From: Neisseriaceae bacterium JH1-16
GTDB taxonomy: Bacteria > Pseudomonadota > Gammaproteobacteria > Burkholderiales > Chromobacteriaceae
Assembly: GCA_025989215.1 (NCBI GenBank)
Contig: JAPDNP010000007.1
Coordinates: forward strand, 62,001 to 126,000
Length of the DNA stretch: 64,000 nt
Direction: 5' to 3'
Of this stretch, positions 32,092 through 64,000 are shown piece after piece. The number at the start of each line of letters is the position of its first letter. Position 1 is the first letter of the stretch. The notes beneath the pieces were generated by a model. It worked only from the letters and a program-made list of their open reading frames with translations, was not told where the DNA came from and made no database searches. The position numbers and the translations under genes are program-made.

Positions 32092-33663
<1,572 letters not shown>

Positions 33664-49528: not shown

Positions 49529-50035
49529 CTATGTGACGCGCCGCTCAGGCAACGCCAAGCAATAACGCGCGACGTACCAGGGACCGGCCTGCCGGTGACT
49601 GTGCAACCGAAAGCCGAAGCCCTCATACAGCGCGCGCAGTGCAGTCCGGTCGGCCGAACAGTCGAGCCGCAAGTCGGCACAACCCTGCCCCACGGCATAG
49701 TCGGCGGCAAAGCGCAGCAGCGCCTGCGCGACGCCCTGCCCCGCCACCCGATGCCGCACCGCTAGCCGGTGCACGAAGACCGACACGCCTTCGGCCAACT
49801 CGGGCCAGAACAGCGGGTCATGGTGCGTCAACCGCACCGTGCCGACCACTTCGCCCGCCAACCGGGCCAGCCCAAACTGCCCGGCGGCCACGGCGTCGCC
49901 CACCTGCTCCACCGTCACCTCGTCCGCACGCCACATCGACTGGCCACAAGCCACCAGCCAGTCGGCCGCTTCGCGCAATACCGCGGCGACCTCGGGCGCT
50001 TCGGTCAAACAGGCCCTATTGATCACGATCTGCAT
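49529..50035 (-). CDS. GNAT-family N-acetyltransferase
   Basis: A 168-residue acetyltransferase. The acetyl-CoA motif is RVAGQGVAQALLRFA, and the C-terminal ALYEGFGF is typical. The substrate is unknown. It is the first gene on the minus strand from the 229-base gap before the DUF937 gene. Confidence 0.88.
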   Translation of the reverse strand: MQIVINRACLTEAPEVAAVLREAADWLVACGQSMWRADEVTVEQVGDAVAAGQFGLARLAGEVVGTVRLTHHDPLFWPELAEGVSVFVHRLAVRHRVAGQGVAQALLRFAADYAVGQGCADLRLDCSADRTALRALYEGFGFRLHSHRQAGPWYVARYCLALPERRVT

Positions 50036-50264
50036 GGCAAGCCCCCCATGAAGAGCAGAGATCGCAACTCAACATTCATCTGTTTGGCATTTCCAGATAC
50101 CACCAAAATTCGCCGCAAAGCCCTGTCCAGCCTGGTTTGCGTTCAGCAGAATCTCAAAGCAAAACAATCGATTGAAAAAACAATGCCTATACTGCGCCTG
50201 AACAGGCCACGGCCTTGTCAGCGGCCTCACACCACAATTCCGGCAATGCACACGGAGGAAGCCT

Positions 50265-51524
50265 ATGAGCATCGATCTGCTTGAGTTGACCCGCAATGCG
50301 CTTGGGGGCGATTTCGTCCAGCAGGTGAGTTCCCTGTTCGGCGAGGACGCCGGCAAGGTAGGTCAGGGCATCTCCGCCCTGATCCCGACGGTGCTGGCTG
50401 GCATCGCCCAGAAGGGCGCCACCCCCGAGGGGGGGCAGAGCCTGATCGGAGCGCTCGACAGCGTGCCGAGCGATATTCATCAGCCCGAGCAGTTCGGCAA
50501 ACAGTTGGCCACGCCGGAGAGCCGCGACGAGTTGCAACAGATCGGCCACGGTCTGCTGGACCAACTATTCGGCGACAAGGCCGACACGCTGGCCGATGCG
50601 GTGTCCTCGGTCAGCGGCATCGGTCGTGCAGTATCCGGCCATGCCGGCGAGCAGGAGGAAATCGCTATCGGCAACGGCATCAGCCACGAGCTGTCCTCCG
50701 TCTTGTTGCCCCTGGTGACACCGGCAATCTTTTCGGTGATCAAGAAAGTGGTCGGCGACAACAAGCTTAATGCACATGGTCTGTCCACCCTGTTGTCCGG
50801 TCAGCTCGGCCAGTTGCAAGGCGCGCTCAACCCGCAGCTGACCAGCGCCCTCGGCTTCGGCAGCGCGGCCGCCCTGCTCGGCAGCCTGGGCGGCAAGTTC
50901 AATGGTGCGGCGCTGGGTGGTGGGGCCGCAGCCGGGGCGGCGGCCGCCAAGATCGCCGAGCCGGTCAGTACCGTGGTGGCCGAGGCTCCGCGCACCCGGC
51001 GCTGGTGGCCATGGGTGCTGCTGGTCCTGGTGGCATTGGTCGCCTTCCCGTTGCTGCGCGGCAAGCCGTCCACCGAGCAGGCCGTCCCGACCACCGACGC
51101 CAGCACGCCGGTAGGCGAAAGCAGCACGATGACCAGTAGCGCTCCGGCGAGCAGCGCCTCGGCGCCGATGGCCGTGGCCGCCTCGGCGGCATCGGCTCCG
51201 GTCGGCAGCGCCGCCGGGCTGGCCAAGATTTACTTCGCCACCGGCAAGGCCGACATCGATGCCGACGGTCAGCAGGCGATCAAGTCAGCGGTCGATGCGG
51301 CCAAATCCGGTACGACCGGGGTGGACGTGACCGGCTACACCGACAAGACCGGCGATGAGCACGCCAACGAAGAGTTGGCGAAGAAGCGCGCGCTGGCGGT
51401 GAAGGACGCGCTGCTGGCGGCCGGCCTCGCCGACAGCCAGATCCACATGAAGCCGCCGATGAGCGTGACCGGCGGCGGCAACGACAAGGAAGCGCGCCGC
51501 GTCGAGATCACCCCGGCGCAGTAA
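50265..51524 (+). CDS. DUF937-OmpA fusion protein
   Basis: A 419-residue protein. Residues 1-190 resemble DUF937/YidB-like helical repeats (LGGDFVQQVSSLFGED, PTVLAGI). One membrane helix lies at about 247-263 (WWPWVLLVLVALVAFPLL), followed by a Ser/Ala-rich linker and a C-terminal OmpA-like peptidoglycan-binding domain (about 315-419: IYFATGKADIDADGQQAI; VTGYTDKTGDEHANEELAKKR). It is probably an inner-membrane protein with its OmpA domain in the periplasm. Confidence 0.85.
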   Translation: MSIDLLELTRNALGGDFVQQVSSLFGEDAGKVGQGISALIPTVLAGIAQKGATPEGGQSLIGALDSVPSDIHQPEQFGKQLATPESRDELQQIGHGLLDQLFGDKADTLADAVSSVSGIGRAVSGHAGEQEEIAIGNGISHELSSVLLPLVTPAIFSVIKKVVGDNKLNAHGLSTLLSGQLGQLQGALNPQLTSALGFGSAAALLGSLGGKFNGAALGGGAAAGAAAAKIAEPVSTVVAEAPRTRRWWPWVLLVLVALVAFPLLRGKPSTEQAVPTTDASTPVGESSTMTSSAPASSASAPMAVAASAASAPVGSAAGLAKIYFATGKADIDADGQQAIKSAVDAAKSGTTGVDVTGYTDKTGDEHANEELAKKRALAVKDALLAAGLADSQIHMKPPMSVTGGGNDKEARRVEITPAQ

Positions 51525-51640
51525 GAACCGCTAAAAGACCCGCCCGGCGTCGTTGCGTTACCGCACGACTTGTTCCCTCTGTGGCAGCATGCCAGCCGGG
51601 AGCACTTTTGCCGGCGACGCTCATCGTCTAGCGGAAACGA

Positions 51641-51676
51641 CACAGGCCAGCCCGAGTGAGCTGGCCTGTGTGTTTG
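51641..51676. terminator. Terminator after the DUF937-OmpA gene
   Basis: The stem CACAGGCCAGC / GCTGGCCTGTG with an eight-base loop is followed by TGTTT. It may also serve the convergent small gene. Confidence 0.75.
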
Positions 51677-51704
51677 GCGTGCGCCGCCGACGGGCGGCGT
51701 GAGC

Positions 51705-51905
51705 TCAGTGCAGCTTTTTCGGCGCGAGCTGCTGCTTTTCGCTAGCGGCCTGACGAGTCTGCTTGTCCATATAGGCGCGGAACTCGGCCTCGTCCGGCCA
51801 GCGGGTACGCAGCATCACGATCACCTGCTCGCGGTTCATGCCGGAGCTTTTGCCCTCGGGGCTGAACAGGAACAGGTCGGCGGCAATTTCATAGATCGAG
51901 CGCAT
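51705..51905 (-). CDS. Small hypothetical protein (66 residues)
   Basis: A 66-residue soluble protein starting MRSIYEIAADLFLFSPEGKS and ending in a Lys-rich tail (QQLAPKKLH). The body (NREQVIVMLRTRWPDEAEFRAYMDKQ) looks like two helices. Not recognised. Coding is supported by good codon use and by a terminator on each side. Confidence 0.6.
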   Translation of the reverse strand: MRSIYEIAADLFLFSPEGKSSGMNREQVIVMLRTRWPDEAEFRAYMDKQTRQAASEKQQLAPKKLH

Positions 51906-52030
51906 GGCGGATGACAAGGATTGATGGAAATGCGCCCTTTATACTGGCCGGGCCGGCGGCTGTAAATCGGCGTGGCGACAGGCGGCAGTACGGCCCGCGG
52001 TCACCGCCACGTCTCCAGCGCATGCGGCGC

Positions 52031-52061
52031 AAAAAAGCCGACCCCCTCGAGGGCCGGCTTT
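52031..52061 (-). terminator. Intrinsic terminator of fumarase
   Basis: On the minus strand, AAAGCCGG...TCGGCTTTTTT: a seven-base stem and a T6 run, about 50 bases beyond the fumarase stop. An exact DUS-like copy lies at 52080-52090, between the stop and the terminator. Confidence 0.8.
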
Positions 52062-52079
52062 CGCCATGTCAGGCGGCCG

Positions 52080-52090
52080 TTCGGCCAACC
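52080..52090 (-). repeat. DUS-like 11-mer downstream of fumarase
   Basis: Exact TTCGGCCAACC (reverse orientation) 20 bases beyond the stop of the fumarase gene. Confidence 0.75.
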
Positions 52091-52109
52091 CGGAGTGATC
52101 AGACAGCGA

Positions 52110-53636
52110 TCAGGCCACGTTGATGGTGATCTTGGCGATGCGCTCGCGCCATTCGGCAGGGCCGGTGTTGTGCACCGACACGCCACAGGAGTCGACCGCT
52201 ACCGTCACCGGCATGTCCTGCACGTCGAACTCGTAGATCGCTTCCATGCCCAGGTCTTCGAACGCCACCACTTTGGACGCCTTGATCGCCTTGGACACCA
52301 GGTAGGCCGAACCACCCACCGCCATCAGGTACACCGCCTTGTTGTCGCGGATCGCCTCGATCGCGGTCGGGCCTCGTTCGGCCTTGCCGATCATGCCGAG
52401 CAAGCCGGTGGTCTCCAGCATCTGGCGGGTGAACTTGTCCATCCGCGTCGCGGTGGTCGGGCCGGCCGGGCCGACCACTTCGTCACCGACCGGATCGACC
52501 GGGCCGACGTAGTAGATGAAGCGGTTGGTGAAGTCGACCGGCAGCTTCTCGTCCTTGTTCAGCATGTCGATCATGCGCTTGTGCGCGGCGTCGCGGCCGG
52601 TCAGGATCTTGCCGTTGAGCAGCAGCACGTCGCCGGGCTGCCAGCTGGCGACTTCTTCCGGGGTGATCGCGTCGAGGTTGACGCGCTTGCCCTTGGAGCT
52701 GTCGTAGGTGATCTTCGGCCAGTCGTCGAGGCTAGGCGGGGTCAGCTTGACCGGGCCGCTGCCGTCGAGGTGGAAGTGCACGTGGCGGGTCGCCGCGCAG
52801 TTCGGGATCATCGCTACCGGCAGGCTGGCGGCGTGAGTCGGGTAGTCGAGCACCTTCACGTCCAGCACGGTGGTCAGGCCGCCCAGACCCTGCGCGCCGA
52901 TGCCCAGCGCGTTGACCTTTTCCAGCAGCTCCAGACGCAGTTCTTCGGCGCGGGTCAGCGTCTCGCCGCGCGCCTTCTTCTCGCGCACCAGGTGGATGTC
53001 GGCCGGCGCCATCAGCGACTCTTTCGCCAGCAGCATGGCCTTTTCCGGCGTGCCGCCGATGCCGATGCCGAGGATGCCCGGCGGACACCAGCCGGCGCCC
53101 ATGGTCGGGATGGTCTTCAGCACCCAGTCGACGATGCTGTCGGACGGGTTGAGCATCACCATCTTCGACTTGTTTTCCGAGCCGCCGCCCTTGGCCGCAC
53201 AGATCACTTCCACCTCGTCGCCCGGCACGATCTCGAAGTGCACCACCGCCGGGGTGTTGTCCTTGGAGTTCTGGCGCTTGCCGGCCGGATCGAGCAGCAC
53301 CGAGGCGCGCAGCTTGTTGTCCGGATGGTTGTAGGCGCGGCGCACCCCTTCGTTGACCATGTCCTGCACCGACAGCGTAGCGTCCCAACGCACGTTCATG
53401 CCGACCTTCAGGAACACCACGGCGATGCCGGTATCCTGGCAGATCGGGCGGTGGCCCTCGGCGCACATGCGGCTGTTGATCAGGATCTGCGCCATGGCGT
53501 CCTTGGCCGCCGGGCTTTCTTCCTTCTCGTAGGCCTCGCTCAGCGCCTTGATGTAGTCCACCGGGTGGTAGTAGCTGATGTACTGGAACGCATCGGCGAT
53601 GCTCTGGATGAAGTCTTCCTGGCGGATAGTGCTCAT
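52110..53636 (-). CDS. fumA: Fumarate hydratase, class I (Fe-S)
   Basis: A 508-residue iron-sulphur fumarase of the TCA cycle. It is the fused class I form (alpha and beta domains in one chain). Cluster ligands are expected at Cys in RPICQDTG, in PNCAATRH and in the GWCPPGILG region; the C-terminal VDSCGVSVHNTG is also conserved. This class is oxygen- and superoxide-sensitive, in keeping with the anaerobic theme of the arc operon. Whether it is FumA- or FumB-like cannot be decided here. Confidence 0.95.
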   Translation of the reverse strand: MSTIRQEDFIQSIADAFQYISYYHPVDYIKALSEAYEKEESPAAKDAMAQILINSRMCAEGHRPICQDTGIAVVFLKVGMNVRWDATLSVQDMVNEGVRRAYNHPDNKLRASVLLDPAGKRQNSKDNTPAVVHFEIVPGDEVEVICAAKGGGSENKSKMVMLNPSDSIVDWVLKTIPTMGAGWCPPGILGIGIGGTPEKAMLLAKESLMAPADIHLVREKKARGETLTRAEELRLELLEKVNALGIGAQGLGGLTTVLDVKVLDYPTHAASLPVAMIPNCAATRHVHFHLDGSGPVKLTPPSLDDWPKITYDSSKGKRVNLDAITPEEVASWQPGDVLLLNGKILTGRDAAHKRMIDMLNKDEKLPVDFTNRFIYYVGPVDPVGDEVVGPAGPTTATRMDKFTRQMLETTGLLGMIGKAERGPTAIEAIRDNKAVYLMAVGGSAYLVSKAIKASKVVAFEDLGMEAIYEFDVQDMPVTVAVDSCGVSVHNTGPAEWRERIAKITINVA

Positions 53637-53824
53637 CTATGGTCTTCCTTGGGGTTCTCTTGAGGGTCTTCCGGGATAGTATCGGCGTGGATACGGCGCG
53701 CTTCTGCGGCGCTTGTCGGCGACATTGTAACCCCGGTGACGATGGGGCGTCACCGCGTAGCGCCTTCGATGACAGGCGTTGGGCATTACACTGGCCCGAT
53801 TGCAAACCGCATGAAAGGCTCCCG

Positions 53825-54109
53825 ATGAAACCGCAATGGCTGATCGCTACGGCGCTGAGCGCCGCCCTGGCGCTGCCCGCCGACGCCGCCCGTGTGCTCG
53901 GCCCCAAGGAACAATGCTTCGGCATCGCCAAGGCCGGCCAGAACGACTGCGCGGCAATGGACGAAAAGCACGGCTGCCATACCCTGGCCCAGATCGACCA
54001 CGACCCGAACGACTGGATCTATGTCGCCGCCGGCACCTGTCAGCAGCTCGGCGGCTCGCTGGACTCGGGCTCGGCGCGCAAGCCGGCGACGCAGGGCAAG
54101 CCGGCTTAG
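53825..54109 (+). CDS. Orphan bufferin-like precursor (BufA1/DUF2282)
   Basis: A 94-residue exported protein: signal peptide about 1-21 (MKPQWLIATALSAALALPADA), then a core with four Cys spaced C-x10-C-x8-C-x20-C. The same spacing is found in the BufA of the operon at 57842. Shared residues include C[FY]GIA.AG.NDCA, DP.D, YVA.G.CQQ and LGG/MGG. No DUF692 gene is adjacent, so modification would need BufB in trans. It lies upstream of nemR on the same strand. Copper binding is inference from the family. Confidence 0.85.
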   Translation: MKPQWLIATALSAALALPADAARVLGPKEQCFGIAKAGQNDCAAMDEKHGCHTLAQIDHDPNDWIYVAAGTCQQLGGSLDSGSARKPATQGKPA

Positions 54110-54164
54110 GGCCCGTCGCAGGCGGTGGCGTGATAACCTCAGCGTCGCCATTTATTTCTTGCAC

Positions 54165-54180
54165 TAGACCGACTGGTCTA
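54165..54180. promoter_or_regulatory. NemR-type operator upstream of nemR
   Basis: TAGACC-GACT-GGTCTA, a perfect dyad 15 bases before the regulator start. It fits autorepression by the TetR-family protein. Confidence 0.75.
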
Positions 54181-54194
54181 TTACGATACCCAAC

Positions 54195-54791
54195 ATGAAC
54201 AAGCCCACTACCCACCCCGATACCCGTGAACACATCCTCGCCGTCGGCGAGATGCTGATCCTCGGCCGTGGCTTCACCGCCATGGGCCTGGCCGAACTGC
54301 TGTCGACCGCCGGGGTACCGAAGGGCTCGTTCTACCACTATTTCAAGTCGAAGGAAGCGTTCGGCGAGGCGCTGCTCAACCGCTATTTCGACGACTACGA
54401 CAGCCGGATGGGCACGCGCTTCGGCACCGATGGCGAGGCGATGCGCGCCAAGCTGCTCGGCTATTTCGGACAGTGGCTGACCAGCGCCTGCGATGCCGAA
54501 CGCCATGGCAACTGCCTGGCGGTGAAGCTGGCCGCCGAGGTCTGCGATCTGTCCGAGCCGATGCGCAACGCGCTCGATTCGGGGATGGCCCGCATCGTCG
54601 AGCGGGTCGCCGCTGCGATCACCGCCGGCGTCGCCGATGGCTCGCTCGCCCCGGTCAGCGACCCGGCAGCGTTGGCCGAAGCGTTGTACTCGACCTGGCT
54701 CGGCGCCGCGCTGCGCGCCAAGGTTGGCCGAACGCTGGCACCGCTGGAGGCCGCACGCGCCGATACCGAGCAGCGCTTGCTGCCGGGCTGA
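54195..54791 (+). CDS. nemR: TetR-family regulator, NemR-like
   Basis: A 198-residue repressor. The HTH is in [26 protein letters not shown]. Cysteines at about 97, 105 and 115 ([21 protein letters not shown]) resemble the redox-sensing Cys of E. coli NemR, which responds to electrophiles and hypochlorous acid. It precedes nemA, and matching dyads lie before both genes. Two DUS-like sites are inside (54671 and 54722). Confidence 0.85.
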
Positions 54792-54853
54792 ATCTGGATT
54801 CAAACGATTACCCTACCGCCCGTGTCCGCACGGGCTTTACTTGACGCATTTCT

Positions 54854-54869
54854 TGAGACGACCGGTCTA
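54854..54869. promoter_or_regulatory. Second NemR-type operator upstream of nemA
   Basis: TGAGACGACCGGTCTA shares the right half (CGAC-GGTCTA) of the first operator with one change; the left arm is shifted. It lies 17 bases before nemA. Confidence 0.55.
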
Positions 54870-54885
54870 TTCGAAAGGAAGCATG

Positions 54886-55983
54886 ATGGCGCTGGACAAA
54901 CTGCTCTCCCCGCTCAATGTGGGCACCGTAACCTTGCCCAACCGCGTGCTGATGGCACCGCTGACCCGACTGCGCAGCATCGAACCGGGCGACGTGCCCA
55001 CCGTGCCGCTGATGGCCGAATACTATGCGCAGCGCGCCAGCGCCGGTCTGATCATCGCCGAGGCGACCCAGATCTCGCCGCAGGGCAAGGGCTATGCCGG
55101 CGCCCCGGGCATCTACAGCGAAGAACAGGTGAAGGCCTGGAAGGTGGTCACCGACGCGGTGCACGCCCAGGGCGGCCGCATCGCCCTGCAGCTGTGGCAC
55201 GTCGGCCGCATCTCGCATACCAGCCTGCAGCCGGATGGCCAGGCACCGGAAGCGCCGTCGGCGATCGCCGCCGATACCCGCACCACCGTGCGCAACGCCC
55301 AGGGCGAGCTGGTGCGCGAACCGACCTCGACGCCGCGGGCGCTGGAGCTGGCCGAACTGGACGACCTGATCGAAGACTACCGCCGCGCCACCGACAACGC
55401 CCGCCGCGCCGGCTTCGACTTCGTCGAAATCCACGCCGCGCACGGCTACCTGCTCAACCAGTTCCTGTCGCCGGAAGCCAACCTGCGCAGCGACGACTAC
55501 GGCGGCAGCGTGGAAAACCGCGCCCGCTTGACGCTGCAGGTGCTCGACGCGGTGATTGCCGAATGGGACGCCGCCCACGTCGGCATCCGCATCTCGCCGC
55601 TGGGCGTGTTCAACGGCCTGTCCGACGTCGGCCAGGAAGAGACCGCCTACTATCTGGTCGACGAGATCGCCAAGCGCCACATCGCCTTCCTGCACGTGTC
55701 CGAACCGGACTGGGCCGGCGGCCCGGCGTATAGCACCGAGTTCCGCCAGGCGCTGCGTGCGCGCTTCCCCGGCGTGATCGTCGCCGCAGGCGGCTACAGT
55801 GGTATCAAGGCCGAGGGGCTGATCGCCGCCGGCCTGATCGATGCCGCCGCCTTCGGCCGCACCTATATCGCCAACCCGGACCTGGTGCAAAGGTTGGCCG
55901 AAGACGCACCGTTGAATACGCCGAACCCGGACACTTTCTACGGTGGCGGCGCGGTGGGCTATACCGACTACCCGACGCTGTGA
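54886..55983 (+). CDS. nemA: N-ethylmaleimide reductase-type alkene reductase (Old Yellow Enzyme)
   Basis: A 365-residue FMN-dependent oxidoreductase reducing electrophilic alkenes such as N-ethylmaleimide and glycerol trinitrate. It has [16 protein letters not shown]-type opening, [18 protein letters not shown] (FMN site), [16 protein letters not shown] (substrate His/Asn-type pair) and [17 protein letters not shown] 54886 (rather than the adjacent 54883) gives better spacing to AGGA. An exact DUS-like copy is at 55892-55902. Confidence 0.93.
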
Positions 55984-55989
55984 GTCTTA

Positions 55990-56017
55990 CGGCCCGGCCT
56001 CAAGCCGGGCCGTTTTA
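55990..56017 (+). terminator. Terminator after nemA
   Basis: The stem ACGGCCCGGC / GCCGGGCCGT with a short loop is followed by TTT, close to the next ribosome site. Confidence 0.75.
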
Positions 56018-56038
56018 GAGCCGCCAGAGAGGATTCCC

Positions 56039-56719
56039 ATGAAGCACGTACTGTTCGTACTGACCAGCCACGACCGCCTCGGCGACACCGGCCACAAGAC
56101 CGGTTTCTGGGTCGAGGAATTCGCCGCGCCCTACTACGTGCTGGCCGATGCCGGTATCGAGATCACGCTGGCGTCGCCTAAGGGCGGCCAGCCGCCGATC
56201 GACCCGAAGAGCGCCCTGCCCGAGTCGCAGACCCCGGCCACCTTGCGCTTCAACGACGATGCCGCGCTCAAGGCCAAGCTGGCCGACACCGTGCCGCTGG
56301 TCGACATCAACGCCGACGCATTCGACGCGGTGTTCTACCCCGGCGGCCACGGCCCGCTGTGGGACCTGGCCGACGATGCCGACTCGCAGGCGCTGATCAA
56401 CACCTTCCTCGCGCAGGGCAAGCCAGTGGCAGCGGTCTGCCACGCGCCGGCCGCGCTGGTGAAGGTGCGCGACGCCGCCGGCCGGGCCATCGTGGCCGGG
56501 CGCCGCGTCACCGGTTTCTCCAATAGCGAGGAAGCCGCGGTCGGCCTGACCGAGGTGGTGCCGTTCCTGCTCGAGGACGCGCTGAAGGCCAACGGCGGGC
56601 TGTATCAGAAAGGCGCCGACTGGCAGTCGCACGTCGAAGAGGACGGCCTGCTGATCACCGGCCAGAATCCGGCCTCGTCCGAGGCGGTGGCCGAGCGGCT
56701 GTTGGCGCAACTCGGCTGA
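56039..56719 (+). CDS. DJ-1/PfpI family protein (Hsp31-like glyoxalase/chaperone)
   Basis: A 226-residue class I glutamine-amidotransferase-fold protein. The nucleophile Cys is in VAAVCHAPAALV, and a Glu/Asp-rich region FYPGGHGPLWDLADD is typical of the Hsp31/YajL-type group. Such proteins detoxify methylglyoxal or repair glycated targets. It follows nemA by 55 bases with a terminator between, so the two are linked by stress role. Specificity is inference. Confidence 0.85.
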   Translation: MKHVLFVLTSHDRLGDTGHKTGFWVEEFAAPYYVLADAGIEITLASPKGGQPPIDPKSALPESQTPATLRFNDDAALKAKLADTVPLVDINADAFDAVFYPGGHGPLWDLADDADSQALINTFLAQGKPVAAVCHAPAALVKVRDAAGRAIVAGRRVTGFSNSEEAAVGLTEVVPFLLEDALKANGGLYQKGADWQSHVEEDGLLITGQNPASSEAVAERLLAQLG

Positions 56720-56738
56720 GTCAGATTTCGACACGCCA

Positions 56739-56772
56739 CAAAAAAGGGGGCCCGATCGGGTCCCCTTTTTTC
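56739..56772. terminator. Bidirectional terminator
   Basis: A6-GGGG/CCCC-T6 arms around a GATC-centred stem. It can serve both the plus-strand DJ-1 gene and the minus-strand barrel gene. Confidence 0.88.
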
Positions 56773-56785
56773 TTACTCGATGCGC

Positions 56786-57481
56786 TCAACGGAAGCGGTA
56801 CGCCACCCCGAGCGATACCGCCGGCCACACCTTGAGCTTGCCGACGTCGTCATTGAGCTGTTGCTGCTGCGCGGCGACGTCGCTCTGCAGCTGCGCGCAA
56901 TCGCCGGCGCTCAAGGAACCGCAACTCGCGCTCAGATGCGCCTTGGGCGAGGTGTTGACCAGCACGCCGATATCGGCGACGAAGCTCAACCCCTTGCCGC
57001 TGGCGGTCGGGTTGCCCCAGCCGATGCCCAGATACGGCGACACCTTGTTGAAATCGACCCGCCCCTGCACCGGACCGATGTCGCTGGCGTTGTAGCTGTG
57101 GCCGTTCAGCGTGAAGCTGCCGTTGCTCGGCTTGCCGTCCAGGTCCAGCTTGTTGCCGTTGTAGACCAGGCCGCCGGACAGGCGGAACGCGCCGCCCAGC
57201 GGGTAGTAGTCGGCCAACAGCGCGGTATTGAACAGCTTGAGCTTGGCGTTGTAATCGACCCCCGAGTTGCTGCGGTCGGTGGACCACGACGCGCCGAACA
57301 CGCCCAGACGGGCGTTCAGCGTGTCCTGGATCACCGTTTTATGCAGCTCCAACCCGCCCCCCTGCACCAGGCTCAGCCGCCCCGCGACCGCGTAACCGTC
57401 GTCGAATGGGCTCACATCGGCAGCTTGCGCCACCCCCATGGCGGCAAGCAGCGACGCTGCGAGCAAGACCTTCTTTTTCAT
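56786..57481 (-). CDS. Small outer-membrane beta-barrel protein
   Basis: A 231-residue exported protein. The signal peptide is MKKKVLLAASLLAAMGVAQA. Alternating hydrophobic/polar strands and the ending SLGVAYRFR suggest an eight-strand barrel. A loop with one Cys pair (ASCGSLSAGDCAQ) is unusual. The strand YNAKLKLFNTALLADYYPLGG resembles generic barrel proteins; I cannot name the family. The start at 57481 fits the signal peptide and GGGGAATG site. Confidence 0.8.
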   Translation of the reverse strand: MKKKVLLAASLLAAMGVAQAADVSPFDDGYAVAGRLSLVQGGGLELHKTVIQDTLNARLGVFGASWSTDRSNSGVDYNAKLKLFNTALLADYYPLGGAFRLSGGLVYNGNKLDLDGKPSNGSFTLNGHSYNASDIGPVQGRVDFNKVSPYLGIGWGNPTASGKGLSFVADIGVLVNTSPKAHLSASCGSLSAGDCAQLQSDVAAQQQQLNDDVGKLKVWPAVSLGVAYRFR

Positions 57482-57841
57482 TATCATTCCCCATGATCTG
57501 ACGCTTCGACTATGAAGCATTCGCTTTATATTCGATGCGCAGAACGCATGCAATCTGGGTTGTTTTACAATGCACTCAACGATCGAAACATTGTCGCGAA
57601 AACGTAGCAGTACCGGCCCTGCCTCCGCCGCCAGCGAACCTTCGCGGCAGTATGCGCGTCCTATTCAGAGCAGCCGACTTGCCACACGTCCCGGCCTTTC
57701 GACCACGGTGACGTCGACATGGGCCAAGCGCACCCCGCTTGCCTATACTCGCGGCGCCCTGTAAGAAAAGCCGACAGCAGCCGACTGACTCAGCGGAAAC
57801 GGCCTTCGCCGTCGTCCGACCCACATCACAGGAGAAACACC
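57482..57841. other. Divergent spacer between the barrel gene and bufA
   Basis: No gene is seen in these 360 bases. It has an inverted pair around ACAATGC / GAAACATTGT near 57564-57595, and a TATACT hexamer at 57743, about 100 bases upstream of bufA, which may be the -10 of its promoter. The -35 is unclear. Confidence 0.5.
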
Positions 57842-58099
57842 ATGAAAGCATCCCGCACCCTGATCGCCTCCGCCCTCGGCGCCGTCGTTGCCATCGGCGC
57901 TGCCAGCATGCCGGCCCAGGCCGCCGAGAAGGACAAGTGTTACGGCATCGCCACCGCCGGCAAGAACGACTGCGCATCGGCGACCGGCCTGCACAGCTGC
58001 GCCGGCCAGGCCAAGACCGACCGCGACCCGGGTGACTTCAAATACGTCGCCAAAGGCAGCTGCCAGCAGATGGGCGGCATGCTGCAGCCGAAGAAGTAA
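57842..58099 (+). CDS. bufA: Bufferin precursor BufA (DUF2282)
   Basis: An 85-residue precursor of a copper-binding modified peptide. The signal peptide is about 1-27 ([21 protein letters not shown]). The core has four Cys with spacing C-x10-C-x8-C-x20-C (in CYGIA, KNDCA, HSCAG and GSCQQM). In characterised bufferins the inner two Cys become thiooxazole groups made by BufB, and the product is exported to the periplasm, where it binds copper. Here that is family knowledge. It is followed by bufB, bufC and bufD. Confidence 0.9.
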
Positions 58100-58117
58100 G
58101 CTTGCCCTCGTCGCCAC

Positions 58118-58143
58118 GGGAGGGGTTGGCAGAACGCCCTCCC
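58118..58143 (+). promoter_or_regulatory. Hairpin between bufA and bufB
   Basis: GGGAGGG and CCCTCCC form a seven-base stem with a 12-base loop, 19 bases after the bufA stop. No T-tract follows. It may protect or attenuate the transcript so that the precursor is made in excess over its enzymes. Confidence 0.45.
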
Positions 58144-58212
58144 CGCCCGGCGACCGATGCCGACCCAGGCTGCTCCGCCGGACAGCCACCGCTGCTGTAA
58201 CGCCGCCACACC

Positions 58213-59046
58213 ATGACCACATTGCCCGTTTGCGCCGGCATCGGCCTGCGCGCGCCCCACTACCGCCACGTGCTCGACAGCCGGCCCGCCATCGGCTGGC
58301 TGGAAGTGCATAGCGAGAATTTCTTCGACGGCGGCCTGCCGCTGGCGATGCTGCATCGCGTTGCCGCCGACTACCCGCTGTCGCTGCACGGCGTCGGCCT
58401 GGGGCTGGGCTCGGCGAGCCGCCCCGACCCGGACCACCTCGCGTCGTTGAAACATCTGGTCGACGCGATCGAACCGGCCGCGGTGTCGGAGCACCTGGCG
58501 TTCAACCATGCGGGTCAGCGCTACGCCAACGACCTGCTGCCCATCCCCTATACCCGCGCGGCGCTAGACACGATCGCGGCCCACGTCGCCGAGGCGCAGG
58601 ATGCGATCGGCCGGCCGCTGCTGCTGGAAAACCTGTCGAGCTACCTCGAATACCCGGCCAACGAGCTGAACGAGGCGGAGTTCCTCGCCGAGCTGGTCAA
58701 GCGCAGCGGCTGCGGCCTGCTGCTCGACGTCAACAATCTATACGTGAACCAGCAGAACCTCGGTACCGACGTCGACGCCTTTCTCGCCGCGCTGCCGGCG
58801 GCGGCGATCGGCGAATACCACCTGGCCGGTTACTCGACGCGCGGCGAACTCTTGATCGACACGCACAGCCGGCCGGTGCACGACGCGGTATGGACGCTGT
58901 TCGAGCGGGTGCTGGCATGCTTCGGGCCGCGCCCGACGCTGATCGAGTGGGACATCGACATCCCGCCGCTCGACACCCTGCTTGGCGAGGCGGCCAAGGC
59001 GCAGCGCCGACTCGACGCCTGCGCCGCAACGGAGGACGTGCGATGA
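58213..59046 (+). CDS. bufB: MNIO-family (DUF692) RiPP-modifying enzyme BufB
   Basis: A 277-residue multinuclear non-haem iron oxidative enzyme (TIM barrel) that modifies Cys residues of the bufferin precursor. Likely metal ligands are in LHGVGLG, SEHLAF, LLENLSSY, LLLDVNNLY, EYHLAGY, DTHSRPV and EWDID. It is the same superfamily as MbnB and TglH. It overlaps bufC by four bases (ATGA). Confidence 0.92.
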   Translation: MTTLPVCAGIGLRAPHYRHVLDSRPAIGWLEVHSENFFDGGLPLAMLHRVAADYPLSLHGVGLGLGSASRPDPDHLASLKHLVDAIEPAAVSEHLAFNHAGQRYANDLLPIPYTRAALDTIAAHVAEAQDAIGRPLLLENLSSYLEYPANELNEAEFLAELVKRSGCGLLLDVNNLYVNQQNLGTDVDAFLAALPAAAIGEYHLAGYSTRGELLIDTHSRPVHDAVWTLFERVLACFGPRPTLIEWDIDIPPLDTLLGEAAKAQRRLDACAATEDVR

Positions 59047-59801
59047 GCGACTGGCAACGCTGGCAGGCCGGGCTGATCGCCGCGATCCACGACCCCGCTG
59101 CGCCCGACACTGCCTATGGCACCGAGGGACTCGCGGTCTACCGCAACAACTACCGGGCCGGACTGATCGATACGGTCAAGTCGCTGTACCCGGTGGTCGC
59201 GCAGCTGGTCGGCGACGAGTTCCTCACCGGCCTTGCGCGCGAGTACGTGAGGCGCACCCCGTCGGCGAGCGGCAATCTGCACCGGTATGGAGAAGCCTTC
59301 AGCGACTTCGTCGGCGGCTTCGAACCGGCCGCCGGCCTGCCGTATCTGCCCGACGTGGCGCGGCTCGAGTGGGCGCTGCACCGCGCTTACTACGCCGTCG
59401 ACGCCGCGCCGTTCGACCCGGCAACGTTGGCCGAAACCGATCCGGAACGCTGGGGCGAACTGCGCTTCGCCTTCCAGCCGGCCTGCACGCTGCTGCGTTC
59501 GGCCCACTGGCCGGTCGTCGCGATCTGGCTGGCGCACCGCCCCGGCGGCGACCCGTCGCGCGTGGACCTCGCCAGCGGCGGCGAGAACGCGCTGGTGTAC
59601 CGCCAGGCCGATCTCGAGGCCGGATTGCTGCCGCTCGGCGATGCCGACGCCGCGTTCACCGCCGCGCTGATGAGCGGTGCGACGCTGGAGAGCGCCACCG
59701 ACGCCGCCCTCGCCATCGACCCTGATTTCGATCTGCAACCGCTGCTGGTCACGCTGCTGCAGTCCGGCTGCCTGGCCGCCGTTCCCACCGGAGAATCGTG
59801 A
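59043..59801 (+). CDS. bufC: BufC partner protein (DUF2063)
   Basis: A 252-residue protein. The N-terminal DUF2063 region is recognised by GLAVYRNNYRAGLIDTVKSLYP and LVGDEFLTGLAREYV. A less conserved C-terminal half follows. In MNIO systems this family is the partner that binds the precursor for modification. It overlaps bufB by four bases and bufD by one base, so all are translated together. Confidence 0.92.
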   Translation: MSDWQRWQAGLIAAIHDPAAPDTAYGTEGLAVYRNNYRAGLIDTVKSLYPVVAQLVGDEFLTGLAREYVRRTPSASGNLHRYGEAFSDFVGGFEPAAGLPYLPDVARLEWALHRAYYAVDAAPFDPATLAETDPERWGELRFAFQPACTLLRSAHWPVVAIWLAHRPGGDPSRVDLASGGENALVYRQADLEAGLLPLGDADAAFTAALMSGATLESATDAALAIDPDFDLQPLLVTLLQSGCLAAVPTGES

Positions 59802-60256
59802 TGAACGCTCTGTGCCGTCTGATCGCCAGCTTCGCCCCGCCGATCCGTCTAGCCAACGCGCTGCAACCCTTGCTGCTGCTGGGCCTGCGGCTGTTCGTCG
59901 CCAGCGTGTTCTTCAAATCGGGGCTGACCAAGATCGATGACTGGGACACCACGCTGACGCTGTTCACCGAGGAATACCACGTGCCCTTGCTGCCGCCGGC
60001 GGTGGCGGCGGTGATGGCCACCTGCGGCGAGCTCGGCCTGTCGTCGCTGCTGGTGGCGGGCCTGGCCGGACGCTTCGCCGCCACCGGCCTGTTCATCCTC
60101 AACGCGGTCGCGGTGTTCAGCTACCCGGGACTGACCGAGATCACCCGCTCCTACCACTACTACTGGTGCACCGAGCTGATGGTGCTTATGCTGTTCGGCC
60201 CGGGCATGCTGTCGCTCGACGCCTGGCTCACCCACCGCTGCCGCGCCCGGCAATGA
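59801..60256 (+). CDS. bufD: DoxX-family membrane protein BufD
   Basis: A 151-residue inner-membrane protein with four helices (about 20-38, 60-80, 85-105, 118-135). FVASVFFKSGLTKIDDWDTT and EEYHVPLLPP are typical of DoxX proteins in bufferin operons. The role is not established; an electron-transfer or export role is proposed. It starts at the last base of the bufC stop. Confidence 0.9.
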   Translation: MNALCRLIASFAPPIRLANALQPLLLLGLRLFVASVFFKSGLTKIDDWDTTLTLFTEEYHVPLLPPAVAAVMATCGELGLSSLLVAGLAGRFAATGLFILNAVAVFSYPGLTEITRSYHYYWCTELMVLMLFGPGMLSLDAWLTHRCRARQ

Positions 60257-60307
60257 GCGTCGTGGCATAATCGGGGCATCCGTTCAACACCTGCGCTGCC
60301 CCGAATC

Positions 60308-61159
60308 ATGCCGAATACCTCCCTGACCCTGGTGGTCCAGTCCGCCGATCTCGATACCGTCGACCTGTCCGAACTGGCCGAGTTGGCCGAAGCAGCCGCC
60401 GTCGACCGCACCGCCGCCGGTGTCGCCCGCCTCGCTGGAGCCAACCCGGCCCACCGCGAAGCGGTGCTGGAATGGTGCGAAGGCCACGAACTCGACGCCG
60501 CCTTTGTGCCGAGCGAGCGCTACTTTGCCGACTTCGGCCTGATCGTGTCCGACATGGACTCGACGCTGATCACCATCGAGTGCATCGACGAGATCGCCGA
60601 CCGGCTCGGCGTGAAGGACAAGGTCGCCGCGATCACCGAGCGCTCGATGGCCGGCGAGCTCGACTTCGCGGCCAGCTTGCGCGAGCGCGTCGCGCTGCTG
60701 GAAGGCCTGCCGGAGCGCGAGCTGGAGTCGGTGTACAACGAGAAAGTGGCGCTGACCCATGGGGCGCGCGAGCTGTTGGCAGCCTGCCGCCAGCACGGCC
60801 TGCGCTTCATGCTGGTGTCGGGCGGCTTCACCTTCTTCACCGAGCGCCTGAAGGAAGACCTTGGCCTCGACTACGCCTTTGCCAATACTCTGGAAGTGAT
60901 CGACGGCAAGCTCACCGGCCGACTGGTCGGCGACATCGTCGACGCCGCCGCCAAGGCGCGGCTGCTGATCGCAGTGCGCGGCGAGCTCGGCCTGAGACCA
61001 GAGCAGGTGATCGCGATGGGCGACGGCGCCAACGACCTGGTGATGTTGGCCGAAGCCGGTGTCGGCGTCGCATTCCGCGCCAAGCCGGTGGTGCGCCGCC
61101 AGGCCGACGTGGCGATCAACCATGTCGGGCTCGACGGCGTCCGCCACCTGTTCCTGTAA
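60308..61159 (+). CDS. serB: Phosphoserine phosphatase
   Basis: A 283-residue HAD-type enzyme for the last step of serine synthesis. The catalytic motif is DMDSTLI (nucleophile Asp and general acid Asp), with ECIDEIAD, VSGGFTFF and GDGANDLVM. The N-terminal 75 residues are an ACT-like region as in proteobacterial SerB. Two DUS-like cores lie inside (60382 and 61045). Confidence 0.95.
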   Translation: MPNTSLTLVVQSADLDTVDLSELAELAEAAAVDRTAAGVARLAGANPAHREAVLEWCEGHELDAAFVPSERYFADFGLIVSDMDSTLITIECIDEIADRLGVKDKVAAITERSMAGELDFAASLRERVALLEGLPERELESVYNEKVALTHGARELLAACRQHGLRFMLVSGGFTFFTERLKEDLGLDYAFANTLEVIDGKLTGRLVGDIVDAAAKARLLIAVRGELGLRPEQVIAMGDGANDLVMLAEAGVGVAFRAKPVVRRQADVAINHVGLDGVRHLFL

Positions 61160-61346
61160 AGAGCCGGTCGCGAGCGGTCCTCTGCGGGATAAACAGTAAT
61201 GCGGCAACCGGAAAGGATTTGAATTTCCGATCGCTGAGCACATCGCCGCGTGCATATCTGCACGACGCCCGGCGATAGGCACGCAGTGCCCACGAGCCCC
61301 GACCAGGGGTGCCGTAAGATGATGATGAGGCTCTAAGGAGACCTGC

Positions 61347-61865
61347 ATGCCACCAATCCTGCCATCACTCGACACCGTCAGCTTCGACGCCGACCTGCCG
61401 TTGCTGAGCCGCCCGCTCGACTTGCTGCCGGCGCGGCTTGATCGCGAGACCCGGCTGGCGCTGCGGCTGCTGGCGGCGCCCACCGAGACCCGCGACAACA
61501 GCGACCCGCTGCTGCTGCGGGTCGAGGCGAAGCTGGATCTGGCTCTGGAGCTGGGCCTGCTGGCGCGCCATCACGAACGCCCCGAGCACTGCGCGAGCCG
61601 GGTTGGGCTGGAAGCATTGGCCTGGCATGCCTCCCGCACCTATCCGGAGGGGGCACGGCTGTTGCTGTCGCTGTTTCCCAACCCCGATTCGGCGCTGGCC
61701 TTGAGCCTGCCGATCGAGGTCACCCGCAGCCAGGAAGACGGCCAGGGCGGTAGCGTGGTCAGCGCCCGCCTGATCGCGCCGTTCGACGAAGACAGCCGCG
61801 CCAGCTGGGAGCGCTGGGTATTCCGCCGCCACCGGCTGGCGCTGCAGCAGCGCACCGGCCACTGA
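61347..61865 (+). CDS. Hypothetical protein (172 residues)
   Basis: A soluble protein of 172 residues, with a good TAAGGAG site before ATG 61347. The N-terminal half is Leu/Arg-rich helical (LLSRPLDLLPARLDRETRLALRLL); the C-terminal half ends SWERWVFRRHRLALQQRTGH. The PSLDTVSFDADLPLLSRPL opening and a central segment recall atypical PilZ proteins, but the RxxxR/DxSxxG signature is missing. I would not name it. Confidence 0.7.
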   Translation: MPPILPSLDTVSFDADLPLLSRPLDLLPARLDRETRLALRLLAAPTETRDNSDPLLLRVEAKLDLALELGLLARHHERPEHCASRVGLEALAWHASRTYPEGARLLLSLFPNPDSALALSLPIEVTRSQEDGQGGSVVSARLIAPFDEDSRASWERWVFRRHRLALQQRTGH

Positions 61866-62031
61866 ACATCACGCCCGTACCGGACCTGGCGGTACCGTGG
61901 AGGCGTTCCGCTCGCAACGCGCTGGATTCCGTTGATGACGCCCCGGACTTGCGACGACGCTTGACCCCAGTCAACGCATAAGAAATTTCATATACACGAA
62001 AATAGTCTCCTACACACAGGGAGACTTCTTC

Positions 62032-63285
62032 ATGCAAACCAGCAGCGTCGCGATGAGCCGTCACGACATCGAATGGGTGCTGACCTTGTTCGGCACCGCG
62101 GTCGGGGCCGGCATTCTGTTCCTGCCGATCCAGGCCGGGCTCGGCGGCATCTGGCCGATGCTGATCCTGACCGTGCTGATCTTTCCGGTCACCTGGCTGT
62201 CGCACCGGGCGCTGACCCGCTTGGTAGTGTCGAGCGACACGCCCGCAGACATCACCACCGTGATCGAGAACGATCTGGGCCGCACCGCCGGCTTCATGGT
62301 CAGCCTGCTGTACTTCCTGTCCATCGTCACCATCGTGGTCGGCTACGCCACCGGCGTCACCAACATCGTCAGCTCCTTCCTGGAAAACCAGCTCGGCGTC
62401 ACCGGCATCTCGCGCTCGCTGCTGTGCATGGCGCTGCTGATCGGCTTGACCGCGGTGCTCGCCGCCGGCGAGAACGTGATGCTGCGCGTCACCTCGCTGA
62501 TGGTGTTTCCGCTGATCGCCTTCCTGTTCGGCCTGTCGGTGTACCTGATCCCGAGCTGGAACCTGTCCGCCTTCGATGCACCCGTGGTCACCGGCGACCT
62601 GGTGAAGAACCTGCTGTTGACTCTGCCTATCCTGGTGTTCTCGATGAATTTCTCGCCGATCTGCTCGGCGCTGGGCACGTCCTATCGCGAGCGCCATCCC
62701 CAGGGTGACGAGGCGCGCCGGCGCACCGACAAGATCGTGCTCTGGAACGCGGTAATCCTGCTGCTGTTCGTGATGTTCTTCGTGTTCTCCAGCGTGCTGG
62801 CCACCAGCCCGGCGGACCTCGCCAACGCCAAGGCCAACAACGTCGACGTGCTGACGATGATTTCGCTGCAGACCGAGCACCCGCTGCTGCGCTACGCGAT
62901 CCCGTTCGTCGCGTTCGCCGCCATCGTCAGCTCCTACTTCGGCCACTTCATCGGCACCCGCGAGGGCCTGCTCGGCATCGTCACCCGTCTGTTGGCCTGG
63001 AACGACCCGGCCCGTGCGGCACGGCTCGACCGGAAGACGATCGGCCGCATCACCACCGTGCTGATGGTGATCGGGCTGTGGCTGCTGGCGGTGGTCAACC
63101 CGCCGATCCTGAAGATCATCGGCGCGCTGTCGGCCCCGATCATCGCGATGTACTGCTACATCATGCCGGTGGTGCTGATGCGCCGTGTGCCGCGCCTGGC
63201 GATCTACCGCGAGAAATCCAGCGCGCTGGTGTTCGTGCTGGGGCTGGTGGTGATCATCGGCTACACCCTGGCCGAACTGCTGTAA
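62032..63285 (+). CDS. HAAAP-family serine/threonine transporter, SdaC-like
   Basis: A 417-residue inner-membrane amino-acid:proton symporter of the HAAAP family with 11 predicted helices. Signatures are LFGTAVGAGILFLPIQAG at the N-terminus and LVFSMNFSPICSALG in the middle. The nearest recalled relatives are SdaC and TdcC (serine, threonine). AGGGAG lies nine bases before ATG 62032. serB upstream makes serine, which fits a serine link. Confidence 0.9.
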   Translation: MQTSSVAMSRHDIEWVLTLFGTAVGAGILFLPIQAGLGGIWPMLILTVLIFPVTWLSHRALTRLVVSSDTPADITTVIENDLGRTAGFMVSLLYFLSIVTIVVGYATGVTNIVSSFLENQLGVTGISRSLLCMALLIGLTAVLAAGENVMLRVTSLMVFPLIAFLFGLSVYLIPSWNLSAFDAPVVTGDLVKNLLLTLPILVFSMNFSPICSALGTSYRERHPQGDEARRRTDKIVLWNAVILLLFVMFFVFSSVLATSPADLANAKANNVDVLTMISLQTEHPLLRYAIPFVAFAAIVSSYFGHFIGTREGLLGIVTRLLAWNDPARAARLDRKTIGRITTVLMVIGLWLLAVVNPPILKIIGALSAPIIAMYCYIMPVVLMRRVPRLAIYREKSSALVFVLGLVVIIGYTLAELL

Positions 63286-63297
63286 GCGCGACTCCTT

Positions 63298-63317
63298 TTC
63301 GGCCAACGTTGGCCGAA
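63298..63317. terminator. Perfect DUS-like palindrome downstream of the serine transporter
   Basis: TTCGGCCAAC joined directly to GTTGGCCGAA, a 20-base palindrome 12 bases after the stop. It is followed by a second, conventional terminator. Confidence 0.75.
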
Positions 63318-63318
63318 C

Positions 63319-63354
63319 AACGACAACCCCGGCGCTAGAGCCGGGGTTGTCGTT
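63319..63354 (+). terminator. Hairpin terminator after the serine transporter
   Basis: AACGACAACCCCGGC and GCCGGGGTTGTCGTT form a 15-base perfect stem with a six-base loop, followed by a short T/G run. Confidence 0.8.
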
Positions 63355-63435
63355 GTTCAGCGGCCGCTCGTGGAGACCAAGCCGGCGCCGCCTGCTTATA
63401 GTGAAGACACTTACCTCGCCCCACGGAGCCTGCCG

Positions 63436-64000
63436 ATGAAGCCCTACGTCCCGATGGCCCTCGCCGCCCTGCTCGCCGGCCTGGCGACCCCGCTCGCCCT
63501 CGCCGCCGCGCCCGATGCGCTGCTCGCGCTGCCCAAGGAGGCGTTCCAGCACTCGCCGTCCGAGCCGCACACCTATCGCTACCAGAAACCCGGCAGCGAT
63601 CTGCGCCGCTACCGCCAGATCCTCATCGCGCCGCTGGCCTTCCTGTCGAAGGCGCCGAGCGGCGATTGGAAGTTCTCGGTGGCCGACGAGCGCAACAAGA
63701 TCAGCCAGTACTTTCAGCAGAGCCTGAAGACACAATTGCAACAGCGCGGCATCGAGACGGTCGAGGTGCCGGGGCCCGATGCGCTGCGTCTGCAGGTAGC
63801 GGTAACCACGGTGACGGAAGAGAAACCCGGCCTGAAACCGATCGACATTCTGCCGGTGAAGGCGGTGTTCAATCTGGCGCGTAACGCCGCCGGGCTGGAA
63901 CCCTATCTGGTGAAGATTTCGACCCTGGGCCAGTTGGAGGACTCGCAAAGCGGCGAGTTGCTGGCCGGCGCGATCGACCTGAAGCAGGCCGACAAGGCCA
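63436..64000 (+). CDS. DUF3313 family protein, N-terminal part
   Basis: An exported protein whose gene runs off the right edge; 188 codons are visible. The signal peptide is about 1-22 (MKPYVPMALAALLAGLATPLALA); no lipobox Cys is seen. The body (ILIAPLAFLSKAPSGDWKFS; SQYFQQSLKTQL) fits DUF3313. Function unknown. Confidence 0.8.
   Translation, partial: MKPYVPMALAALLAGLATPLALAAAPDALLALPKEAFQHSPSEPHTYRYQKPGSDLRRYRQILIAPLAFLSKAPSGDWKFSVADERNKISQYFQQSLKTQLQQRGIETVEVPGPDALRLQVAVTTVTEEKPGLKPIDILPVKAVFNLARNAAGLEPYLVKISTLGQLEDSQSGELLAGAIDLKQADKA

Follow-up and report, generated by a model that had tools for sequence, protein, structure and literature searches.

A BufA1-type bufferin operon in Neisseriaceae bacterium JH1-16 with dispersed precursor paralogues and a conserved promoter-like element

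How does a bacterium with a single bufferin maturase express and mature more than one bufferin precursor? The question arises from a 64,000-nucleotide stretch of the genome of Neisseriaceae bacterium JH1-16 (contig JAPDNP010000007.1, positions 62,001–126,000, forward strand; hereafter the window, whose numbering is used unless another contig or locus is named), in which four consecutive plus-strand genes at 57842–60256, bufABCD, encode DUF2282, DUF692, DUF2063, and DoxX proteins in this order. An earlier reading of the bare sequence (the original prediction) had called them a complete operon for a bufferin, a ribosomally synthesized and post-translationally modified peptide (RiPP), and the Pfam matches of all four products bear this out. 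We conclude with considerable confidence that the region is a complete BufA1-type bufferin operon, whose product would bind copper by the route proposed below. As such, the operon is an ordinary addition to a large, known bufferin family; dispersed precursor genes, an island that carries one of them, and a regulatory signature lift it somewhat above routine annotation. Two pertinent features of the same window, a second DUF2282 gene (53825–54109) and a promoter-like element (57760–57785), had been overlooked.

The bufABCD operon and its predicted product

The first gene, bufA (57842–58099; 85 aa from an ATG start), encodes a DUF2282 bufferin precursor of the BufA1 type (PF10048, 82.8 bits) and is followed by bufB (58213–59046; 277 aa), the gene for an MNIO bufferin maturase of the DUF692 family (PF05114, 340.7 bits). 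Next come bufC (59043–59801; 252 aa), for a partner protein in which a DUF2063 domain (PF09836, 77.2 bits; residues 7–90) is accompanied by a second domain resembling that of known partners, and bufD (59801–60256; 151 aa), for a DoxX-family membrane protein (PF07681, 60.7 bits). Each protein exceeds the Pfam cut-off for its expected family (22.4 bits for DUF2282, 25 for MbnB_TglH_ChrH, 27.2 for DUF2063, and 23.6 for DoxX), and BufB also lies above the curated NCBIfam cut-off of MNIO_BufB (NF050167; 358.4 versus 310), with four other MNIO models among the NCBIfam listings scoring under their own cut-offs. The genes had been said to overlap, which is the case for bufB/bufC (4 nt) and bufC/bufD (1 nt) but not for bufA and bufB, separated by 113 nt. 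This gap folds no better than shuffled sequence (z −0.46). Over 57500–60330, a sigma-70 promoter scan returned no hit (shuffles, 0.3) and a terminator scan two matches, near the chance level of 1.1; an Rfam scan of 50000–64000 gave no match.

BufA contains four core cysteines (33, 44, 53, and 74) behind a leader with a Sec-type look, comprising a K/R start, a hydrophobic stretch (12-mer mean 2.6), and an AxA site judged by eye. BufB displays the motifs HG59, EHL93, EN139, DVNN172, HLAG203, DTH216, and IEWD244, which include metal ligands, and its sequence relatives among PDB entries are 3bww, the DUF692 chain of 8hci (chain D), and MbnB (7tcr). For BufC, a 252-aa structural model built from 57 aligned sequences of the 74 available, its own included, reached a predicted local distance difference test score (pLDDT) of 93.7. 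The model matches chain A of the TglHI complex 8hci (E 1.2e-5, 284 columns), taken to be TglI since chain D is the DUF692 chain, as well as Neisseria NGO1945 (3dee; E 5.9e-5, 227 columns); the match to TbiB1 (5v1v), a protein with a RiPP recognition element, was weak (E 1.8). This confident model predicts a fold like that of known MNIO partner proteins. Gene content, order, families, core cysteines, MNIO motifs, and partner fold are thus all as expected for an operon of the BufA1 type, and the bufferin architecture first proposed for the locus stands.

Some observations weigh against this assignment. BufA has no NCBIfam match, and the HvfC-type (for BufC) and HvfX-type (for BufD) NCBIfam models remain below their cut-offs, BufD scoring 58 bits against the 80 required of the HvfX family; the assignment of the peptide therefore rests on the Pfam DUF2282 match and gene order. 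In addition, the BufA signal peptide is a call made by eye.

5-Thiooxazole formation and copper binding are established for bufferins of Caulobacter and other species (PMC12452194, PMC12668002), and by analogy with these relatives we infer cysteine modification and copper binding for BufA in this genome. In the cytoplasm, BufB, a multi-iron oxidase, would act on substrate presented by BufC and oxidise the central cysteine pair of BufA, one in NDC and the other in HSC, to 5-thiooxazoles. Modified BufA would then be exported by Sec, its outer two cysteines would form a disulphide, and the mature bufferin would act as a periplasmic copper sequestrant. At the membrane, BufD is likely to have a supporting role in redox or export.

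The closest named operon is that of Crenobacter oryzisoli, whose BufB is 92% identical and where serB comes next, as it does here (TIGR00338, over cut-off). A second genome of the same genus as that of the window (G036) has the operon at the same place. Among 125 loci in which bufB was matched, a number that includes short and duplicate ones, serB is present in 30. Within the family, DUF2282 was found in 57 of 61 genomes and MNIO in 58 of 61, all 57 DUF2282 genomes also having MNIO. In a class-wide sample, DUF2282 occurred in 84 of 323 genomes and MNIO in 81 of those 84, as compared to 193 of 323 overall; DUF2282 without MNIO was seen in G240 and G398, plus a weak match in G448. This co-occurrence is mostly due to physical linkage.

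A conserved promoter-like element ahead of bufA

The promoter-like element is a predicted extracytoplasmic function (ECF)-type promoter, TGTAAG-N16-CGAC, on the plus strand at 57760–57785, where it begins 82 nt ahead of the ATG of bufA. The stretch upstream of bufA shares 69% mean column identity with that of C. oryzisoli, the TGTAAG and CGACTGACTC blocks being conserved. Counted over 94 unique regions (300 nt at most) that precede an operon-first bufA gene, TGTAAG-N16/17-CGAC occurred in 52, as opposed to none for the reversed pattern and a mean of 0.01 in shuffles. Second-in-tandem copies had it in two of 33 cases and unlinked copies in none of 21. Other classes among the 94 regions were TGTAAC..CGAA, the Caulobacter sigma-F type (13), and TGTAAT..CGAC (6), and a general pattern matched 71.

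From sequence and position, we infer that TGTAAG-N16-CGAC acts as an ECF promoter of bufA, at which an ECF sigma factor would start transcription upon envelope or metal stress. Conservation by itself is silent on what binds, and the motif might be a site of another kind, for a repressor or an activator. However, its spacer is restricted to 16 nt (43 of the 52) or 17 nt (9), with none at 11–15 or 18–23 and two at spacer 10, and it is located 69–227 nt ahead of the predicted start codon. Its −35 core and spacing are also like those of the Neisseria sigma-E consensus (GTMAGBWTT, spacer 12–13, CGTCTAAH; PMC2893595), with CGAC at most sites here where Neisseria has CGTC, and the second class agrees with the Caulobacter sigma-F site GTAACC-N16-CGAA, sigma-F being the factor that controls the Caulobacter operons (PMC3511200). 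Together, these features make a repressor or activator site highly improbable.

Against the proposed control by an ECF sigma factor stand the 23 of 94 operon-first regions in which all three exact element classes are absent, and a genome-wide search in which TGTAAG-N15-17-CGAC was not enriched (12 sites versus 10 for the reversed control). That search revealed no wider regulon, and the reading frames following its sites were mostly uninformative. For the homologous gig operon of Cupriavidus metallidurans, moreover, the account in PMC10304878 states that dependence on the sigma factor RpoQ could not be demonstrated. If the element is indeed a promoter, its signature links many operon-first bufA1 genes that have no sigma gene nearby to an ECF regulon.

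With TGTAAA excluded, the general pattern has three matches in the window: before bufA, before the second DUF2282 gene (hereafter orphan-1), and on the minus strand at 53765–53790. The orphan-1 element, TGTAAC-N16-CGTC (53726–53751, plus strand), starts 99 nt upstream of the orphan-1 coding sequence and may be a promoter of this type as well; when its 300-nt region was shuffled 20,000 times, 69 shuffles matched the general pattern, an optimistic figure because that pattern was widened after the site had been seen. The minus-strand match is TGTAAT-N16-CGAA and is directed towards a fumarase gene. Separately, an inverted repeat before bufA, CAAGCG..CGCTTG, spotted by eye and considered as a MerR-family site, was dropped, as it is not conserved upstream in C. 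oryzisoli.

A candidate sigma factor and an element inside its gene

Which sigma factor might read these elements? The contig carrying the operon (C16) has no Sigma70_r4_2 match, and 42 of the 52 loci that carry the element yielded no ECF gene at a distance of up to 4 kb, which suggests control in trans; 14 of the 42, being under 8 kb long, cover the flank only in part. The acting factor is most likely that of a sigma-E/MseR-type pair encoded elsewhere in the genome, on contig C18: wherever a TGTAAG element and an ECF gene lie within 4 kb of each other (10 loci), the C18 sigma factor is the best match to that ECF gene, out of four ECF-type proteins of the genome used as queries. The C18 sigma gene (L164:1456–2019, minus strand) encodes Sigma70_r2 and r4_2 domains, and downstream of it lies the gene for a small protein, MMIKCKEAS...HLMLCGNC, with an early cysteine and HxxxCxxC, a pattern described for MseR, the zinc-binding anti-sigma factor of Neisseria (PMC2893595). 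By its domains and this predicted zinc anti-sigma pattern, the C18 locus qualifies as a putative ECF sigma-E/MseR-type pair.

TGTAAG-N16-CGAC also occurs inside the C18 sigma gene itself (C18:27125–27150; L164:1541–1566, minus strand), ahead of the anti-sigma gene. Among the loci analysed, tblastn with the C18 sigma factor gave 30 distinct matches covering this site, one of which (L068) has an in-frame stop. Cys-Lys is present at the site in 16 of them, in every case encoded by TGT-AAG, and 15 of these continue at spacing 16 with CGAC (13) or CGTC (2); the remaining 14 matches have neither Cys-Lys nor the element. Elsewhere in the 16 genes, cysteine is encoded by TGC 35 times and by TGT 16 times, and lysine by AAG 60 times and by AAA 32 times. 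Among 33 residues invariant across the 16 (Met and Trp excluded), single-codon use is found only at the Cys-Lys pair, and among seven representatives of 60%-identity clusters it extends to three of 39 invariant residues, namely this Cys, this Lys, and one Asn; eight of the 16 genes fall into one cluster, so that the effective number is about seven. TGT-AAG in the sigma gene is hence conserved at the DNA level.

In each of the 16 genes, the embedded element begins 101–136 nt ahead of the anti-sigma start codon, these start codons having been chosen mechanically. This placement points to a putative promoter of the anti-sigma gene, and thereby to a possible negative-feedback promoter within a sigma gene. 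For E. coli rseA, a sigma-E promoter is on record, and the principle may therefore not be new. A literature search for anti-sigma promoters within sigma genes retrieved one paper on this family, PMC2893595, in which a single promoter is described ahead of the entire rpoE operon of Neisseria.

Three precursors and one maturase

The genome (4.6 Mb in 18 contigs, rated 100% complete) contains three DUF2282 genes and only one MNIO and one DUF2063 gene. Orphan-1 (53825–54109, plus strand; 94 aa, 71.2 bits) retains the four core cysteines, is 45% identical to BufA, and has no adjoining MNIO gene. It is located 3.7 kb upstream of bufABCD, between the fumarase gene on the opposite strand and a TetR-NemA pair. 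Across 150 genomes of the order, nothing but orphan-1 itself matched it at more than 55% identity, and only one DUF2282 gene is present in the sister genome G036; orphan-1 thus looks lineage-specific.

The third gene, orphan-2 (C12:330382–330633), starts with TTG and resides in a 7,869-bp island (L115:4119–11987, on C12) beside glmS. The island has 26-bp perfect inverted ends, is flanked by a 5-bp duplication, ACAAC, and is inserted about 20 bp past the glmS stop codon, which is the classical Tn7 site. Its end sites number two per side, and these four are the only copies in the genome (19-letter pattern, at most two mismatches). Alongside orphan-2, the cargo encodes MerR, MerT, MerP, a GDCCVxC protein, DUF2933, DsbD-type, F510_1955, TlpA/ResA-type, and SCO1 proteins, together with three small proteins without a Pfam match. 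No transposase, of the TnsABC type or any other, was found by Pfam among the 13 cargo proteins and one frame crossing the right end, the rest of the genome not having been searched for one. The island is accordingly described here as having Tn7-like ends and not as a complete Tn7-like transposon. At another locus (L137, in G083), an unlinked DUF2282 gene likewise lies about 3 kb from genes for MerR, MerT, MerP, and a GDCCVxC protein.

Stand-alone and tandem Buf1 precursors have been described (PMC12452194), the stand-alone ones as common, and in Legionella a conjugative element is known to carry gig operons (PMC5413113). Our literature search retrieved no report of a DUF2282 precursor in an island with Tn7-like ends.

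The mer genes beside orphan-2 and near the L137 copy bear on metal specificity. A genuine MNIO RiPP operon could make its product for a purpose other than copper, be it gold, mercury, another soft metal, or oxidative or sulfur stress: related operons respond to gold besides copper (PMC5413113, PMC10304878) and to chromium and cadmium (PMC3511200), and the Neisseria operon is controlled by a zinc-binding anti-sigma factor (PMC2893595). The bufferins described in PMC12452194, on the other hand, sequester copper, and the presence of SCO1- and DsbD-type genes in the island fits with copper. We therefore regard a purpose unrelated to copper as unlikely and retain copper sequestration as the favored role.

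Are the unlinked precursors modified in trans?

With one maturase and three precursors, this genome is suited to asking whether stand-alone bufferin precursors are modified in trans. In a sample of the order, DUF2282 genes were sought by tblastn with orphan-1 and called unlinked when no MNIO lay within 1.5 kb, as was the case for 13 of 77 places. Two of the 13 lie at contig ends (in G066, and in G136, where the contig ends at 3,420); the other 11 are spread over seven genomes, that of the window included, all of which have MNIO. Genomes with unlinked copies away from contig ends thus make up seven of 76 MNIO genomes and none of 74 others (Fisher p 0.014). Adding the contig-end case G066 gives p 0.06, and with G136 also kept in, p is 0.006 (G066 out) or 0.03 (G066 in). 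Furthermore, the loci analysed comprise 21 unlinked copies, including two at contig ends; the four cysteines are conserved in all 21, NDC in 19, and HxC in 14. On balance, we lean slightly towards the view that the single BufBC pair also serves the two orphan precursors in trans.

The two unlinked peptides could instead not be BufBC substrates at all and work unmodified, as cysteine-bearing periplasmic metal binders. G398, rated 100% complete, gave no MNIO match despite its two DUF2282 genes, which weighs against service in trans in that DUF2282 peptides need not always be modified; G240 (94% complete) has one such gene and again no MNIO match, and the peptides of both genomes keep NDC and HxC. 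At five loci (L133, L134, L136, L139, and L144), moreover, an unlinked DUF2282 gene is directly followed by DoxX without an adjoining MNIO gene, although at L144 one lies about 3 kb upstream. Set against this are the confinement of unlinked copies away from contig ends to MNIO genomes in the order sample (weakened when G066 is included) and the conservation of the cysteines and of NDC. We consider the unmodified state a serious alternative, albeit somewhat doubtful. Decay of the core motif as a mark of unmodified orphans was rejected, given that the peptides of MNIO-less genomes keep the motifs. The five loci with DoxX may also represent a two-gene bufA-bufD unit.

Modification in trans by BufBC, if true, would mean for the enzyme-less precursor in its transposon-like island that bufferins can spread as metal-resistance cargo using host enzymes. 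Tentatively, we combine both lines into one model: bufABCD would belong to a sigma-E/MseR-type circuit in which the anti-sigma promoter, TGTAAG-N16-CG(A/T)C, is embedded within the region-4 codons of the sigma gene, such that active sigma directly raises its own inhibitor, and one BufBC pair would serve three precursors, one of them on an enzyme-less island with Tn7-like ends that relies on host maturation.

Comparison with known systems

The close analogues of the operon include gigPABT of Cupriavidus metallidurans and the Neisseria rpoE operon, and not Caulobacter alone. Cupriavidus metallidurans is betaproteobacterial, which is a likeness, and the precursor family of the Neisseria operon is a different one, with EGKCG repeats.

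The bufferin 1 operons of Caulobacter (CC3254–CC3257; CC2907–CC2905) share the four families in the same order, an ECF-type promoter, and precursor paralogues within one genome (PMC3511200, PMC12452194). In contrast to Caulobacter, the operon described here has no Sigma70_r4_2 match on its contig, its element is TGTAAG..CGAC rather than GTAACC..CGAA, and the paralogous precursors have no enzymes of their own. The gigPABT operon, induced by copper and gold, again comprises the same four families in the same order, but with the ECF gene rpoQ divergent and adjacent (PMC10304878). Similarities to the Neisseria rpoE operon NMB2140–2145 (sigma-E/MseR) lie in the −35 core and spacing of the promoter and in an ECF and zinc-binding anti-sigma pair of the C18 kind (PMC2893595), and the gonococcal cluster employs an MNIO together with a DUF2063 partner in producing a thiooxazole peptide (PMC12668002); differences are CGTC there and CGAC here, and the presence of sigma and anti-sigma genes within the operon there.

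In the Chromobacterium-like genera g2 and g3, which belong to the same family, a linked enzyme is also accompanied by more than one DUF2282 gene: 28 of 29 genomes (G001–G029) have two, separated by a few hundred bases. Unlike in these tandems, the extra copies here are dispersed, one 3.7 kb upstream and the other on a different contig in the mobile-looking island.

Further features of the window

Between orphan-1 and bufA lies an electrophile-response-like row (54195–56719) coding for a TetR regulator, an N-ethylmaleimide reductase (NemA), and a DJ-1/PfpI-type protein. In NCBIfam, the best match of the regulator is CurR, under its cut-off; the reductase scores over cut-off, and all matches of the DJ-1/PfpI-type protein lie under theirs. 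Of the 125 loci with a bufB match, 10 have a NemA match, 10 a DJ-1 match, and 8 a TetR match. The next gene (56786–57481, minus strand), directed away from bufA, encodes an outer-membrane protein that weakly resembles CarO porins (55.7 bits, cut-off 300; no Pfam match). Finally, ARAGORN reported a tRNA-like match with an undefined anticodon at 32739–32826 on the minus strand, which is probably spurious.

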